Below, piece after piece: positions 25,931 to 57,432 of a DNA stretch of 64,000 nucleotides (position 1 is the stretch's first letter; each line of letters opens with the position of its first letter). Both the position numbers and the translations under genes were made by a program. Below the pieces are notes generated by a model, which did no database searches, was not told the DNA's origin, and saw only the letters and a list, made by a program, of their open reading frames with translations. Source of the stretch: Kutzneria viridogrisea (GTDB lineage: Bacteria; Actinomycetota; Actinomycetes; Mycobacteriales; Pseudonocardiaceae); the NCBI GenBank assembly GCA_014138725.1, contig JACJID010000003.1:310001-374000 (forward strand), written 5' to 3'.

Positions 25931-26029
25931 CCGCACCCGAACCTAGCGGCTCGCCTCGGAACCTTGACCGTGTCTCGCCGGCGACCACCCAGCCGCGCCA
26001 GCCGACGCGGGCCGTGTCATGAAGGTGCC

Positions 26030-27271
26030 TTGGGTTCAGGGGGTGGTTGCAACACTGCTTGTGATCGAGTGGAGTTGTGATGACTGGACGGGCCCAGCTA
26101 CCCCGCGCTGTGCGGGTGAGGTTTTGGGAGGTGGTCCGGGCTGGTCATGCGGTCCGGCCCGCGTCGGGGATGGTCGGGGTCAGTCATGAGACCGGGCGGC
26201 GGTGGTTCCGGCAGGCTGGCGGGGTGATCGGTAACGCGCCCCGCCCACTGTCGAACCGGTTCCTGTCGTTGGTCGAGCGGGAGGCGATCTCCCGCGGGAT
26301 CGCCGCGGGTGACTCGTTCGCCCGGATCGCGGCGGGTCTGGGGCGTCCGGCCTGCACGGTCAGTCGTGAGGTCGGCCGTAACGGTGGGCGGCGGGGGTAT
26401 CGGGCGGTGGCCGCGGAGCGGGCCGCGAGGGCGCGGGCCCGGCGGCCCAAGGTCGCGCGGCTGGCCTCCGACCCGGTCCTGCGGGGCTGGGTCCAGGCCG
26501 GGCTGGAGCGGGGTTGGTCACCGGAGCAGGTCGCTGCCACGCTGGAGACGACCTTTCCCGACCGGCCGGAGATGCGGGTGTCGCACGAGACGATCTACCA
26601 GTCGATCTACGTCCAGGGCCGGGGCGCGTTGCGCCGTGAGCTGGCGGCGTGTCTGCGGACCGGGCGGGCGCTACGCCGCCCCCGCCGGGCCAGCGGTGCG
26701 CCCGTCTCGGGGGCGGGCCGGATCCCGGGCATGGTCAGTATCTCCGAACGTCCCGCCGAGGCCGCCGACCGGGCGGTGCCCGGGCATTGGGAGGGTGACC
26801 TGATCCTGGGGCGGGGTAACAGGTCCGCGATCGGGACTCTGGTCGAGCGTTCCACCCGGTACTGCCTGCTGCTGCACCTGCCCGACGGGCATGACGCGGC
26901 GCGGGTGCGGGACCGGATGATCGAGACCATCCGGTCCCTGCCCACGCACCTGTGGCGGTCGTTGACCTGGGACCAGGGCAAGGAGATGGCCCGGCATGCC
27001 GAGATCAGTCTGGCCACCGACCTGGCGATCTACTTCTGTGACCCGCACTCACCCTGGCAACGTGGCTCGAATGAGAACACCAACGGGCTGCTGCGCCAGT
27101 ACTTCCCCAAGGGCACCGACCTGTCCGCGCACTCCGCGGAGGACCTCGCACGCGTCGCGGTCCTGCTCAACGGCAGGCCCCGCAAGACCCTGGGCTGGAT
27201 CACCCCCGCCGAAGCACTCCAGCGGGTACTGTCCGGCAAACCCCCCATTGCAACCACCACATGAACCCACC
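26030..27271 (+). mobile_element. IS30-family insertion sequence
   Basis: About 1.24 kb. Terminal inverted repeats GGGTTCAGGGGGTGGTTGCA... (from 26032) and its mirror at 27248-27268 agree in 19 of 21 positions. TGCC occurs on both sides (26026-26029 and 27272-27275), a likely target duplication. Removing the element restores a word reading GGTGCCGTTCAGGAC, the arm of a palindromic repeat, which supports the boundaries. One intact transposase gene fills the element, so it may still be mobile. Confidence 0.88.
26080..27264 (+). CDS. IS30 family transposase
   Basis: 394 residues from ATG 26080 (GGAG 5 nt upstream; GTG 26077 is in frame). An N-terminal HTH region (about residues 60-110, IAAGLGRPACTVSREVGRNG) is the IS30-type DNA-binding segment. 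The DDE catalytic domain shows GHWEGDLILGRG with the first Asp (near residue 236), LTWDQGKEMARH with the second (near 295) and RGSNENTNGLLRQYFPKGT with the catalytic Glu (near 331), all intact. It cuts and joins the IS ends described for 26030-27271. Confidence 0.95.
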   Translation: MTGRAQLPRAVRVRFWEVVRAGHAVRPASGMVGVSHETGRRWFRQAGGVIGNAPRPLSNRFLSLVEREAISRGIAAGDSFARIAAGLGRPACTVSREVGRNGGRRGYRAVAAERAARARARRPKVARLASDPVLRGWVQAGLERGWSPEQVAATLETTFPDRPEMRVSHETIYQSIYVQGRGALRRELAACLRTGRALRRPRRASGAPVSGAGRIPGMVSISERPAEAADRAVPGHWEGDLILGRGNRSAIGTLVERSTRYCLLLHLPDGHDAARVRDRMIETIRSLPTHLWRSLTWDQGKEMARHAEISLATDLAIYFCDPHSPWQRGSNENTNGLLRQYFPKGTDLSAHSAEDLARVAVLLNGRPRKTLGWITPAEALQRVLSGKPPIATTT

Positions 27272-27337
27272 TGCCGTTCAGGACACTGGACCTGGATGCG
27301 TTGAAGATCTTGGTGTGGTGATCGTGTCGTGGACACA

Positions 27338-27406
27338 CAGATGCCCTCTGACTTGGGACGATTGTTCTTGCGAGGGAACAAACCGGACCGAGTGAGAGGG
27401 CATCTG
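27338..27406 (+). promoter_or_regulatory. Long-range hairpin ahead of the IS1380 transposase
   Basis: Perfect 12-bp arms CAGATGCCCTCT (27338-27349) and AGAGGGCATCTG (27395-27406), ending 4 nt before the transposase ATG. Transcripts entering from outside would fold this stem and could hide the ribosome-binding region, a known way of keeping IS transposase expression low. Confidence 0.55.
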
Positions 27407-27410
27407 CTGG

Positions 27411-28790
27411 ATGCGATCGTCTCATACCCCCGGCGCGGTATCAGCCAGGTTCGACGACCCGAACCTCGTGTCGCATGCCGGACTGGTGCCGGTGACACGC
27501 CTGTCCGAGCGGGTCGGCCTGGCCGAACTGGCCGACCACTGGCTCAAGGTCCCCGGCCCCACCGGCGCCAACGCCGGGGCCAAGGTCGCCTCGATCGTGG
27601 CCGGGATGGCCGCCGGCGCGGACAGCGTCACCGACCTGGACCTGATCCGGCACGGGGCACTCCCCCGACTGTTCACCCAGGTCAAAGCCGCCTCCACCCT
27701 GGGCGCCTTTCTCCGGGGACTGTGCGGCGGGGACATATCCAGCCTGGACGCGGTCGCCCGCCGGGTGCTCCAGCGCCTGGCCGCCCAGACACCCCTGCTA
27801 CCCAGGATCGACCAGATCGCGTTGATCGATATCGACTCGAAGATCACCCAGGTGCACGGACGAGCCAAGCAAGGCGCGGCCTACGGCTACACCAAGGTGC
27901 TGGGCCTGCACTTCCAGGCCGTGACCCTGTCCACCCCGCACGCGGCACCGGTGATCCTGCAGACCCGGCTGCGCGGCGGGAACGCGGGGTCCGGACGCAA
28001 GGCCGCCTCCCTGCTCCGGCAGGCGTTAGGCACCGCGCGGGCCTGCGGGGCCACCGGCCCGGTCCTGGTCCGCGGGGACTCCACGTTCTTCTCCGGCACC
28101 GTGATCGCCACCATCGGGGCCGCCGGGGCGTGGTTCTCCATCACCGCACCGCACAACCCCGCGGTCACCACCGCGATCGCGGCCATCGACCAGGCCGCGT
28201 GGAGGCCGATCCGCTACCCCCGCCCGGTGTTGGACACCGACACCGGACAGTGGGTCACCCACGCCGAGATCGCCGAGACCACCCTGACCGCGTTCACCAA
28301 CCCCACCGACAACCCCGGCCGGACGGTCACCGCCCGACTGCTGGTCCGCCGGGTACCCGCCCACACCCCCACCGGCCAGGACGGACTGTTCCCGCTCTGG
28401 CGGTATCACGCGGTGTTCACCGACAACCCCACCGACCCGGCCACCGCCTGGGCCCAGCACAACGGCCGCGCCGGAGCGATCGAACAGGTCTTCGCCGACC
28501 TGAACAACTCCGCCCTGGCACACTTCCCCTCCGGGAAGTTCGCCGCCAACGCCGCCTGGCTGACCCTGGCCGCACTGACGCACAACCTGATGCGCGCCCT
28601 GGGGTGTCTGGCCGGTGGGCGGCACGCCACGGCCCGCACCGGCACCCTGCGCCGTCACCTGGTCACCGTCGCGGCACGCCTGGCCCGCACCGCCCGCACC
28701 CTCACCCTGCACCTGCCCCGGAACTGGCCCTGGCAACGGGCATGGCAGCAGATCTTCGACCGCACCCACCACCCACCAGCGGCGGCCTGA
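27411..28790 (+). CDS. IS1380 family transposase
   Basis: 459 residues from ATG 27411. The DDE_Tnp_1-type catalytic residues are in IALIDIDSKITQVHG (first Asp, near residue 143), LVRGDSTFFSGTV (second Asp, near 221) and RAGAIEQVFADLNNS with Glu near residue 353. An N-terminal segment VPVTRLSERVGLAELADHWL is typical for the family. The gene appears intact, ends shortly before the right inverted repeat, and is preceded by a 12-bp-arm hairpin. Confidence 0.93.
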   Translation: MRSSHTPGAVSARFDDPNLVSHAGLVPVTRLSERVGLAELADHWLKVPGPTGANAGAKVASIVAGMAAGADSVTDLDLIRHGALPRLFTQVKAASTLGAFLRGLCGGDISSLDAVARRVLQRLAAQTPLLPRIDQIALIDIDSKITQVHGRAKQGAAYGYTKVLGLHFQAVTLSTPHAAPVILQTRLRGGNAGSGRKAASLLRQALGTARACGATGPVLVRGDSTFFSGTVIATIGAAGAWFSITAPHNPAVTTAIAAIDQAAWRPIRYPRPVLDTDTGQWVTHAEIAETTLTAFTNPTDNPGRTVTARLLVRRVPAHTPTGQDGLFPLWRYHAVFTDNPTDPATAWAQHNGRAGAIEQVFADLNNSALAHFPSGKFAANAAWLTLAALTHNLMRALGCLAGGRHATARTGTLRRHLVTVAARLARTARTLTLHLPRNWPWQRAWQQIFDRTHHPPAAA

Positions 28791-29029
28791 CCACCCACCC
28801 GGCCCACTGGGCACGACCCGAGGACACCACGGAAGGCTGGGCAGACCAGCGGTCCTGACACACCCGTGCCAGGACCGCATGATCACCACACCACCTCAAC
28901 CCCCACCAAGATCACCAACAAAGACCATCAGCGGATCCAGGCTGGATGTCCCAAACGGCACTTTCATGACACCGCAGCCTCGGCCCGGACCGGATACCAG
29001 GTCAACGATGCGCGACACTCCAGCCGAAC

Positions 29030-30424
29030 CTAGCCCTGCCCCGGCTGCCGCTGGGGGCCGGTCGGCGGGTGCGGCGGCGGGTTGTCCCGGACCTGCTGCT
29101 GGGCCTGGCGCAGCTTGCTGACCGTGGCGGCATAGCGCAGCTGGGCGTTGTCCCGGGGGAAGCGCGCGGGCTTGGCGAAGCGGAACGCGGAGGTCATGTC
29201 GCCCACGGCGGCGCGGCGCCAGGCACTGATGTGCGGTTCGGCCACACCGAACCGGCGCTCCAGGAAGCGCACCAGCGAGGAGTGGTCCAGCGCCTCGGAG
29301 CAGACGTAGCCGCCCGCGGTCCACGGGGACACGATGACGGTCGGCACGCGGAAGCCCAGGCCGATCGGCACGCCCCGCACGAACTCGTCCGGGGTGCCCG
29401 TGGGCGGGGTCGGCGGTGGCACGTGGTCGAAGTAGCCGTCGTTCTCGTCGTAGGTCAGGATGAACACCGTCTTGGCCCACAGGTCCGGGTTCGCCGCGAT
29501 GGCGTCCAGTTTGGACGCGATGTACTGGGCGCCCGCGGCGGGCATCCAGTTCGGGTGCTCGGTCTGCGCGGACGGGGCCACCAGCCAGGACACCTGCGGC
29601 AGCCTGCCGGTACGGGCGTCGTGCTCGAACCAGCCCGCCGACCTCTTGACCATGCCGTTGCGGTACAGGGGCGAGGACTTCGGCGCCTCGGCGAACTGCC
29701 GGAACCAGGCCAGCGCGTTGTCATCGTAGTTGTCCTCCTCCTGGTACACCTGCCAGCTGACCCCCGCCCTGGTCAGCCGCTCGGGATAGGTCTCCCAGGA
29801 CAGCACGGGGTTCGCCGAGGACATGTAGTTGTGGTACGCCGGGCCGCCCGCGGTGCCCTGCGGGTCGATCCAGCCGCTCCACATGTAGAGCCGGTTCGGG
29901 TTGGTCGGGCCCAGTACCGAGCAGAAGTAGTTGTCGCACACCGTGAACGCCTCGGCCAGCGCGTGGTGGAACGGGATGTCCTCGCGCGTGTAGTACGCCA
30001 TGCTGTTGGCGCCCTTGGCCTTGATCCAGTTGTCCATCCGGCCGCCGTTCCAGGCCGAGTGCTGGTCGTTCCAGTCGTGCGGCAGGCCGGGGGTCTCCTG
30101 CGCGCTGGTCACCGCCGTGTCGTAGCGGAAGGGCAGCAGGTAGCCGTCGGGATGGCCGGAGTAGGGCTGCTGGAACACGGAATCGCCGTTGGGCAGCCGC
30201 ATCGCGGTGGGGTCGGCGAAGCCGCGAACCCCGGGCATGGTGCCGAAGTAGTGGTCGAAGCTGCGGTTCTCCTGCATCAGGATCACCACGTGCTCGATGT
30301 CGCGCAGCCCACCACGCGCAGTGGCCGGGGTGTCGGCCAGCGCCCTGCGCAGGTTGCCCGGCAGCACCATGGCGCCCAGCGCCGCGGCGGCACCGGCAGC
30401 CAGCACCCTGCGGCGGGTCAGCAT
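29030..30424 (-). CDS. Tat-exported phosphoesterase (bacterial phospholipase C / acid phosphatase family)
   Basis: 464 residues from ATG 30424. Residues 4-6 RRR in LTRRRVLAAG, followed by an Ala-rich hydrophobic stretch, form a twin-arginine signal. The mature enzyme starts with the family motif VVILMQENRSFDHYFGTMPG (near residues 45-64), with Asn and Glu as metal ligands; TYDENDGYFDHVPPP (near 345) is the second conserved block. Family members cleave phosphodiesters or phosphomonoesters outside the cell, often for phosphate supply. It lies 5 bp behind an NHL-repeat gene in one operon. Its stop codon TAG is part of the border repeat CCGAACCTAG of the IS-split repeat element. Confidence 0.93.
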   Translation of the reverse strand: MLTRRRVLAAGAAAALGAMVLPGNLRRALADTPATARGGLRDIEHVVILMQENRSFDHYFGTMPGVRGFADPTAMRLPNGDSVFQQPYSGHPDGYLLPFRYDTAVTSAQETPGLPHDWNDQHSAWNGGRMDNWIKAKGANSMAYYTREDIPFHHALAEAFTVCDNYFCSVLGPTNPNRLYMWSGWIDPQGTAGGPAYHNYMSSANPVLSWETYPERLTRAGVSWQVYQEEDNYDDNALAWFRQFAEAPKSSPLYRNGMVKRSAGWFEHDARTGRLPQVSWLVAPSAQTEHPNWMPAAGAQYIASKLDAIAANPDLWAKTVFILTYDENDGYFDHVPPPTPPTGTPDEFVRGVPIGLGFRVPTVIVSPWTAGGYVCSEALDHSSLVRFLERRFGVAEPHISAWRRAAVGDMTSAFRFAKPARFPRDNAQLRYAATVSKLRQAQQQVRDNPPPHPPTGPQRQPGQG

Positions 30425-56710: not shown

Positions 56711-57241
56711 GTGCCCGACTCACCGGAACAGCTGGACTACGTGTCCTTCGTGGACTACGCGATCGACCGGGTGACCGCTGGCGGCGCCGCCGTGGACCCC
56801 GTGGCGATGCGCCTGGTGCTGACCCTGCACCGGGTCACCAGCGCGCTGGTCTACGACGTGGAGTCCGGGGTGCACCGCCCACGCGGCCTGTCCTGGCCGG
56901 GGTTCCGCGTGCTGTTCGTGCTGTGGCTGGCGGGCCCGCTGGAGGCCAAGCGCGTGGCCGAACTGTCCGGCATGAGCCGCGCGGCGGTGTCCGCACTGGT
57001 CAACACCCTGGAACGGGACGGGCTGGTGTCGCGCTCCCGCGCCGAGCACGACGGGCGGGCCGTCACGCTGGCGCTGACCCCCGGCGGCATCGAGTCGATC
57101 ACCGACGCCTACCTGGCGCACAACGCCCGCGAGCAGGTGTGGGCCAGCGCGCTGACCGGGCCGGAGCAGCGCACGCTGATCGGCCTGTTGCAGAAGCTGA
57201 TGGACGGACCGGCCGCCGAGAGCGCGCGGCGGCGCACCTAG
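56711..57241 (+). CDS. MarR family regulator of the monooxygenase/MBL operon
   Basis: 176 residues from GTG 56711, leaderless-type. An N-terminal helical part (LDYVSFVDYAIDRVTAGGAA) precedes the winged helix: LSWPGFRVLFVLWLAGPLEA, RVAELSGMSRAAVSALVNTL as recognition helix, and LVSRSRAEHDGRAVTLALTP, where H-D-G-R-A replaces the usual D-x-R wing. Divergent from the MBL-hydroxylase operon. The last codons (ESARRRT, TAG) lie within the 29-bp direct repeat that borders copy B of the palindrome-centred element, so the element is inserted exactly at this gene's end. Confidence 0.88.
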   Translation: MPDSPEQLDYVSFVDYAIDRVTAGGAAVDPVAMRLVLTLHRVTSALVYDVESGVHRPRGLSWPGFRVLFVLWLAGPLEAKRVAELSGMSRAAVSALVNTLERDGLVSRSRAEHDGRAVTLALTPGGIESITDAYLAHNAREQVWASALTGPEQRTLIGLLQKLMDGPAAESARRRT

Positions 57242-57432
57242 CGGCGCCGCCTCGGAACCTTGACCGTGTCTCGCCGGCGACCACCCAGCCGCGCCCGCCG
57301 ACGCGGGCCGTGTCATGAAAGTGCCGTTCAGGACATCCAGTGTCCTGAACGGCACTTTCATGGCACCGCAGCCTCGGCCCGGACCGGATACCAGGTCAAC
57401 GATGCGCGGCGGCGCACCTAGCGGCGCCGCCT
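57224..57432. repeat. Copy B (uninterrupted) of the palindrome-centred repeat element
   Basis: Bordered by a perfect 29-bp direct repeat (57224-57252 and 57404-57432) that includes GGCGCACCTAGCGGCGCCGC. The body 57253-57403 matches copy A at both ends. In the centre is a hairpin with perfect 22-bp arms (57314-57335 and 57341-57362; ATGAAAGTGCCGTTCAGGAC) and loop TCCAG. Both flanking genes, MarR on + and a membrane protein on -, use a TAG stop that lies in one of the two direct repeats, so the element separates genes that before insertion would have ended on the same CTAG. Confidence 0.85.

Follow-up and report, generated by a model that had tools for sequence, protein, structure and literature searches.

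A GC-rich family of short non-coding elements in the Kutzneria viridogrisea genome, very probably IS630-type MITEs

Introduction

Among the small mobile elements described in bacteria, RUP and its presumed partner IS630-Spn1 provide the closest comparison for the repeat analyzed here: RUP is short, non-coding and dispersed, has ends resembling those of an IS630-family element in the same genome, is found at TA, and is proposed to be mobilized in trans (PMC2229807, PMC3049150). The Correia/NEMIS elements of Neisseria are likewise presented as short MITEs that have TA at either end and terminal repeats about 24 bp long (PMC2229807). ISY100, a studied member of the IS630 group, is reported to require no more than its own transposase, to work with 30 bp of each end, and to duplicate TA and, occasionally, another dinucleotide (AA/TT in 2 of 39 cases) (PMC2170065).

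Here, we examine a repeat element in a 64,000-nucleotide stretch of the genome of the actinomycete Kutzneria viridogrisea (the whole stretch is hereinafter called the window), which contains two copies of it, one uninterrupted and the other broken by insertion sequences. Like RUP, this element is short, non-coding, dispersed, inserted at TA and similar in its ends to an IS630 element of the same genome; it is set apart from RUP in that the latter is 107 bp long and AT-rich, whereas the present element is 176 bp long and GC-rich, with other ends and a long palindrome. By analogy, the element would work as RUP does with IS630-Spn1. The Correia/NEMIS elements, to which it is likened by description, reside in a host that is, judging by the searches, unrelated. 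IS630 and ISY100 duplicate TA (PMC2170065), as the MITE appears to do, but are autonomous and possess a transposase gene, whereas the MITE encodes none. A literature search, with subscription journals mostly outside its coverage, found no account of the element, which represents a new family within a well-known kind, the IS630-type MITE.

Results and discussion

Copy number and consensus

A search of the whole genome with the uninterrupted window copy as the query produced 78 matches, which, when read singly, comprised copies of the element and matches located mainly over the central hairpin. The MITE family occupies about 26 loci, dispersed over eight contigs and surrounded by different flanks (L001–L021; L022 with L025, which together represent the interrupted window copy; L023; L024 with L026; L030; and L083; L027–L029 and L031 are repeats of other loci and were left out of the locus count). 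This number may be low because some decayed matches that reach past the hairpin, such as G000:C1:1214280, are outside the count. The initial annotation had suggested a small mobile, MITE-like element on the strength of two window copies sharing both ends; both copies are where it placed them, their end segments recur in the other genome copies, and the dispersed loci and terminal inverted repeats bear the suggestion out.

The consensus, derived from 15 copies without large deletions, is 176 bp long, starts with G and ends with C, and 20 aligned copies, shortened ones included, diverge from it by 1.7–9.9%. The terminal inverted repeats are imperfect and about 25 bp long; of their 25 outermost positions, 18 are alike in the two consensus ends. 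Short length, lack of a transposase gene and many dispersed copies are the features of an IS630-type MITE. The terminal-repeat pattern matched the genome 41 times compared to 0 matches for the reversed control, so that chance is excluded; by position, 37 of these matches belong to MITE copies, 3 to two IS630 copies, and 1 to a decayed IS630 relative (L082). Several copies (L005, L006, L007 and L026) are flanked by short, G+C-rich GCGAGTCCCGGCC-type repeats, apparently another intergenic repeat family.

The two copies in the window

The features of the two window copies are listed in Table 1.

Table 1 Coordinates of the window copies and their features, with the loci considered for end orientation
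Feature	Position	Strand	Remarks
Uninterrupted MITE copy, G...C, 178 bp	57241..57418	+	TA flanks at 57239-57240 and 57419-57420
Left 29-bp direct repeat, aberrant, spanning the left border of the uninterrupted copy	57224..57252	.	
Right 29-bp direct repeat, aberrant, spanning the right border of the uninterrupted copy	57404..57432	.	
Central hairpin of the uninterrupted copy	57307..57369	.	Arms 57307-57335 and 57341-57369, 93% complementary
Interrupted copy, segment left of the IS30 insertion	25946..26029	+	Left CTAG 25943-25946
IS30-family element in the hairpin arm of the interrupted copy	26030..27271	+	Transposase ORF 26077-27264; NF033563, E 2.5e-86
Interrupted copy, hairpin piece separating the two insertions	27272..27290	+	
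IS1380-family element in the hairpin loop of the interrupted copy	27291..28941	+	Transposase ORF 27411-28790; NF033539, E 2.2e-91
Interrupted copy, right part	28942..29030	+	Right CTAG 29030-29033
Left 11-bp direct repeat CCGAACCTAGC of the interrupted copy	25937..25947	.	
Right 11-bp direct repeat CCGAACCTAGC of the interrupted copy	29024..29034	.	
Loci listed for the right-end/stop asymmetry	L001, L005-L007, L009, L013-L017, L030, L083, interrupted copy		

The central hairpin of the uninterrupted copy, recognized already in the initial annotation, is present, and the RNA fold of positions 57248–57410 has an energy of −94.6 kcal/mol, with a z-score of −8.2 relative to 200 shuffled sequences. 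The insertion sequences said to break the second copy proved to be of the IS30 and IS1380 families (assigned by NCBIfam, with the borders of the insertions read from the sequence); the former is flanked by a duplicated TGCC (26026–26029 and 27272–27275) and the latter by a duplicated CTGGA (27286–27290 and 28942–28946). Both elements entered the hairpin of this copy after the insertion of the MITE. Another MITE copy (L024/L026) contains an insertion with the same ends as the IS30-family one, in the same hairpin arm and with GTGC duplicated; in these two copies, the IS30-type insertions lie around GTGCC of the arm.

Target site and border repeats

The MITE sits in Y-TA-R, usually CTAG. Tenzen and Ohtsubo reportedly found in 1991 that an IS630-associated transposon prefers TA in CTAG, and the target of the MITE follows this rule known for IS630. 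Both borders could be counted in 21 copies, with 5 of the 26 loci omitted on account of missing or decayed borders (L019, L020, L021, L023 and L024/L026). The central dinucleotide is identical on the two sides in 19 of the 21: TA, the duplication typical of an IS630-type MITE, in 17, CA/CA in L002 and TC/TC in L012. Four of the 17 TA copies have unlike outer Y bases on the two sides (T/C in L006, L016 and L083, C/T in L030), and L010 is bordered by CTAG and CTAA, that is, an outer G versus A. This discordance of the outer bases points to duplication of the central 2 bp of Y-TA-R rather than of the 4-bp CTAG, and the border sequences thus favour reading the target duplication as a 2-bp TA. The preference for CTAG proposed in the initial annotation holds, but the duplication is best read as TA. 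Speaking against a plain TA duplication are the 2 copies of the 21 with unequal dinucleotides (L003 and L011) and the 4 with long direct repeats, for which it does not account.

These direct repeats at the borders are 29 bp long in L001, 11 bp in L002, 11 bp in the interrupted copy and 9 bp in L015; in L019, which has lost the left end, the repeat measured by eye is about 16. The initial annotation had taken such repeats for a property of the element; they are indeed found in both window copies (29 bp and CCGAACCTAGC, the latter 11 rather than 10 bp long) but are atypical, reaching at least 9 bp in 4 of the 21 copies, with 2–6 bp in the other 17. In L001 and L002, the left flank has been copied into the place of the usual right end, and in L001 the right flank has likewise been copied into the place of the left end; the right end of the interrupted copy is altered as well, less simply than in these two. 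The match in L015 could be due to chance. The long direct repeats would be aberrant products that arose when one end went missing and repair, or template switching between a filled and an empty site, copied the flank from the other side; the few copies concerned present a small, testable puzzle on the repair of IS630-type insertions in bacteria.

An IS630-family partner and the proposed mobilization

The same genome carries two intact, 1,194-bp elements of the IS630 family (L080 and a second copy, L081), the target of which is CTAG. Their 367-aa transposases (in L080 encoded at 1070–2173 on the − strand) are identical, match the NCBIfam IS630 model (NF033545, E 2.4e-61) and contain Pfam DDE_3 and helix-turn-helix domains. 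One of the IS630 copies splits a regulator gene (LysR-type by eye) at CTAG, and keeping one copy of the target yields a single 282-codon frame. The ends of the MITE and IS630 agree at 18–21 of the first 25 bases and at 4–13 of the next 25; because the agreement fades beyond the first 25 bases, only the ends are common to the two, not the interiors. Terminal inverted repeats in common with an NF033545 IS630 element of the same genome mark the family as IS630-type MITEs, and a GC-rich genome thereby adds a clear example of a MITE paired with an IS630 element.

In all likelihood, the element is a non-autonomous IS630-type MITE, with ends that are recognized and moved by an IS630-family transposase encoded elsewhere, either the present one or an earlier relative. 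The comparison of ends and targets suggests that the enzyme of the full-size IS630 element probably moves the MITE in trans; the initial annotation had supposed that a transposase or recombinase elsewhere perhaps moved it, and the IS630-family partner, with its matching ends and target, answers to that supposition. The copy number, the ends held in common with an intact IS630 element, the target word and the duplicated dinucleotide are observed directly, and we infer cut-and-paste movement in trans as well as which IS moved the MITE. An IS630-family (Tc1/mariner-type) transposase, or an earlier relative, would recognize the two imperfect terminal repeats, excise the MITE and integrate it at the TA within Y-TA-R, in most cases CTAG, whereupon host repair of the 2-bp stagger would duplicate TA. 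Because G is the outermost base of either MITE end, a TAG stop is restored when the element inserts into it. Given that the IS630 proteins are identical while the MITE copies diverge by 1.7–9.9%, and that the interiors are unlike, the IS now present may have arrived later and may not be what moved the MITE. A second IS630 type, with six copies of equal score, lies directly on border CTAG words of the MITE twice (L008 and L021) and on the border of the decayed IS630 relative once (L082); each such insertion supplies new CTAG targets.

Alternative explanations

IS701-family transposases make 4-bp YTAG duplications, and movement of the MITE by such an enzyme was considered first: CTAG predominates as the border word on either side, and the genome yields 9 matches to Pfam DDE_5, the domain of IS701 transposases. 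In L006, L016, L083 and L030, one border reads TTAG and the opposite one CTAG, which, together with CTAG/CTAA in L010, is at odds with a 4-bp YTAG duplication, and all 41 matches to the end pattern fall in MITE copies, IS630 elements or the decayed IS630 relative. We therefore set the IS701 explanation aside as very unlikely, on the grounds of borders that mix TTAG with CTAG and of the partner element from the IS630 family. Flanks that vary among the copies beyond CTAG, and again the presence in the genome of an IS630 partner sharing its ends, make it extremely unlikely that the element is a cassette for which a site-specific recombinase uses CTAG as the crossover core, although the ends, when joined, would form a dyad (the palindrome expected of such a cassette) around CTAG, and the flanks of L001 resemble the opposite ends. 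The window copies lie on one contig, 31 kb apart, as copies derived from one another by a single local gene conversion or duplication might; this explanation, which the initial annotation had set against its own, is refuted by the copy number (eight contigs carry about 26 copies between them, and the flanks differ) and retains a vanishingly small probability.

Distribution in other genomes and empty sites

The terminal pattern (≤3 mismatches) was detected in 32 of 200 genomes of the host family, the window's own included, whereas the control gave a single match each in 4 of the 200. Among six stretches from relatives, two encode full-length relatives of the transposase with 81–82% identity (L165 and L166), one encodes a more distant relative (L167, 59%, with a second piece at 85%), two contain fragments (L164 and L169), and one showed no match (L168). 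The 160-base core of the MITE matched 29 of 59 other genomes, over at most 61 bases each, and these matches were not counted as copies. The exact right-half pattern, which misses diverged copies, produced 0 matches in viral contigs and 1, in an unrelated proteobacterial MAG, in a set of genome contigs that may omit records of the window's own genome; a search of plasmids for the MITE gave no match. From these sequence searches, the family looks confined to the host species or its near kin.

Empty sites, the check suggested in the initial annotation, were sought at four places (L001, L030, L005 and the gene to the right of the interrupted copy), with usable orthologues only at L005. At the L001 place, gene order differs in the nearest relative; the L030 place had no match in six relatives; and for the gene to the right of the interrupted copy, relatives with 50–62% identity are among the best matches. 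The L005 orthologue was found in all 6 same-genus genomes, none of which matches over the element part at E 1e-30. In five of these, which lack the MITE (G001, G002, G003, G005 and G006), the stop of the orthologue is no more than a few codons from where the alignment ends, and in G004 it is 15 codons further on. The stop in G005 lies in a single CTAG with no MITE after it, in flanks too diverged for a base-exact comparison. The relatives hold other palindromes at this place, which, along with the diverged flanks, makes base-exact comparison of empty sites impossible at L005.

Gene setting and the hairpin

A border falls on a stop codon in 11 of the 21 copies by the strict count and in 13 by the lenient one, to which three borders were added by eye, compared to 13 of 43 control CTAG sites (10/31 and 3/12). 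This test employed ORFs of at least 100 codons that passed a third-position G+C test, the third positions of coding ORFs in these regions being very G+C-rich. The excess over the control is weak (Fisher p 0.10 strict, 0.03 lenient), and special attraction to stop codons was rejected as an explanation, the pattern being largely accounted for by the CTAG target; the target rule thus goes far to explain gene-sparing insertions at TAG stops. Such a stop coincides more frequently with the right end than with the left, at 9 to 1 by the strict count (p 0.02) and 10 to 1 by the lenient one (p 0.01), an asymmetry that was spotted post hoc, so that the p values flatter it, and from which L008 and L021 were omitted because the stop belongs to a neighbouring IS630-type gene. 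The genes around 20 MITE copies (L008 omitted) are converging in 14 cases, tandem in 6 and diverging in none, figures that stand without a genome-wide base rate. Selection against promoter insertions is the simple explanation for this setting.

The hairpin that the initial annotation had considered part of the element is carried by the MITE but belongs to a separate palindrome family, found in 120 places in the genome versus 0 for the control, and is lacking in the MITE copies L030 and L083. The arms of this family are about 24 bp long, and the loop often contains CTAG (loci L122–L141 and the window hairpin). At 20 lone-hairpin loci from the listed part of the 120 places, the surrounding genes are converging in 13 cases, tandem in 7 and diverging in none. 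The palindrome family may be terminator-like or a mobile repeat in its own right. It is conceivable, if rather doubtful, that the MITE with its acquired strong palindrome is a portable, stop-sparing 3′-end unit, which would settle on TAG stops and leave the protein unaltered, mostly between converging genes and with the right end toward the gene, and end transcription there, the long-repeat copies recording repair that switched between filled and empty sister sites. REP/RAYT palindromes, a possible comparison for the hairpin only, are hairpins with a GTAG-type tag that are moved by a Y1 transposase. The palindrome of the relatives downstream of the L005 orthologue (L153 and L158) has another arm sequence, and its loop again contains (C/T)AGATG.
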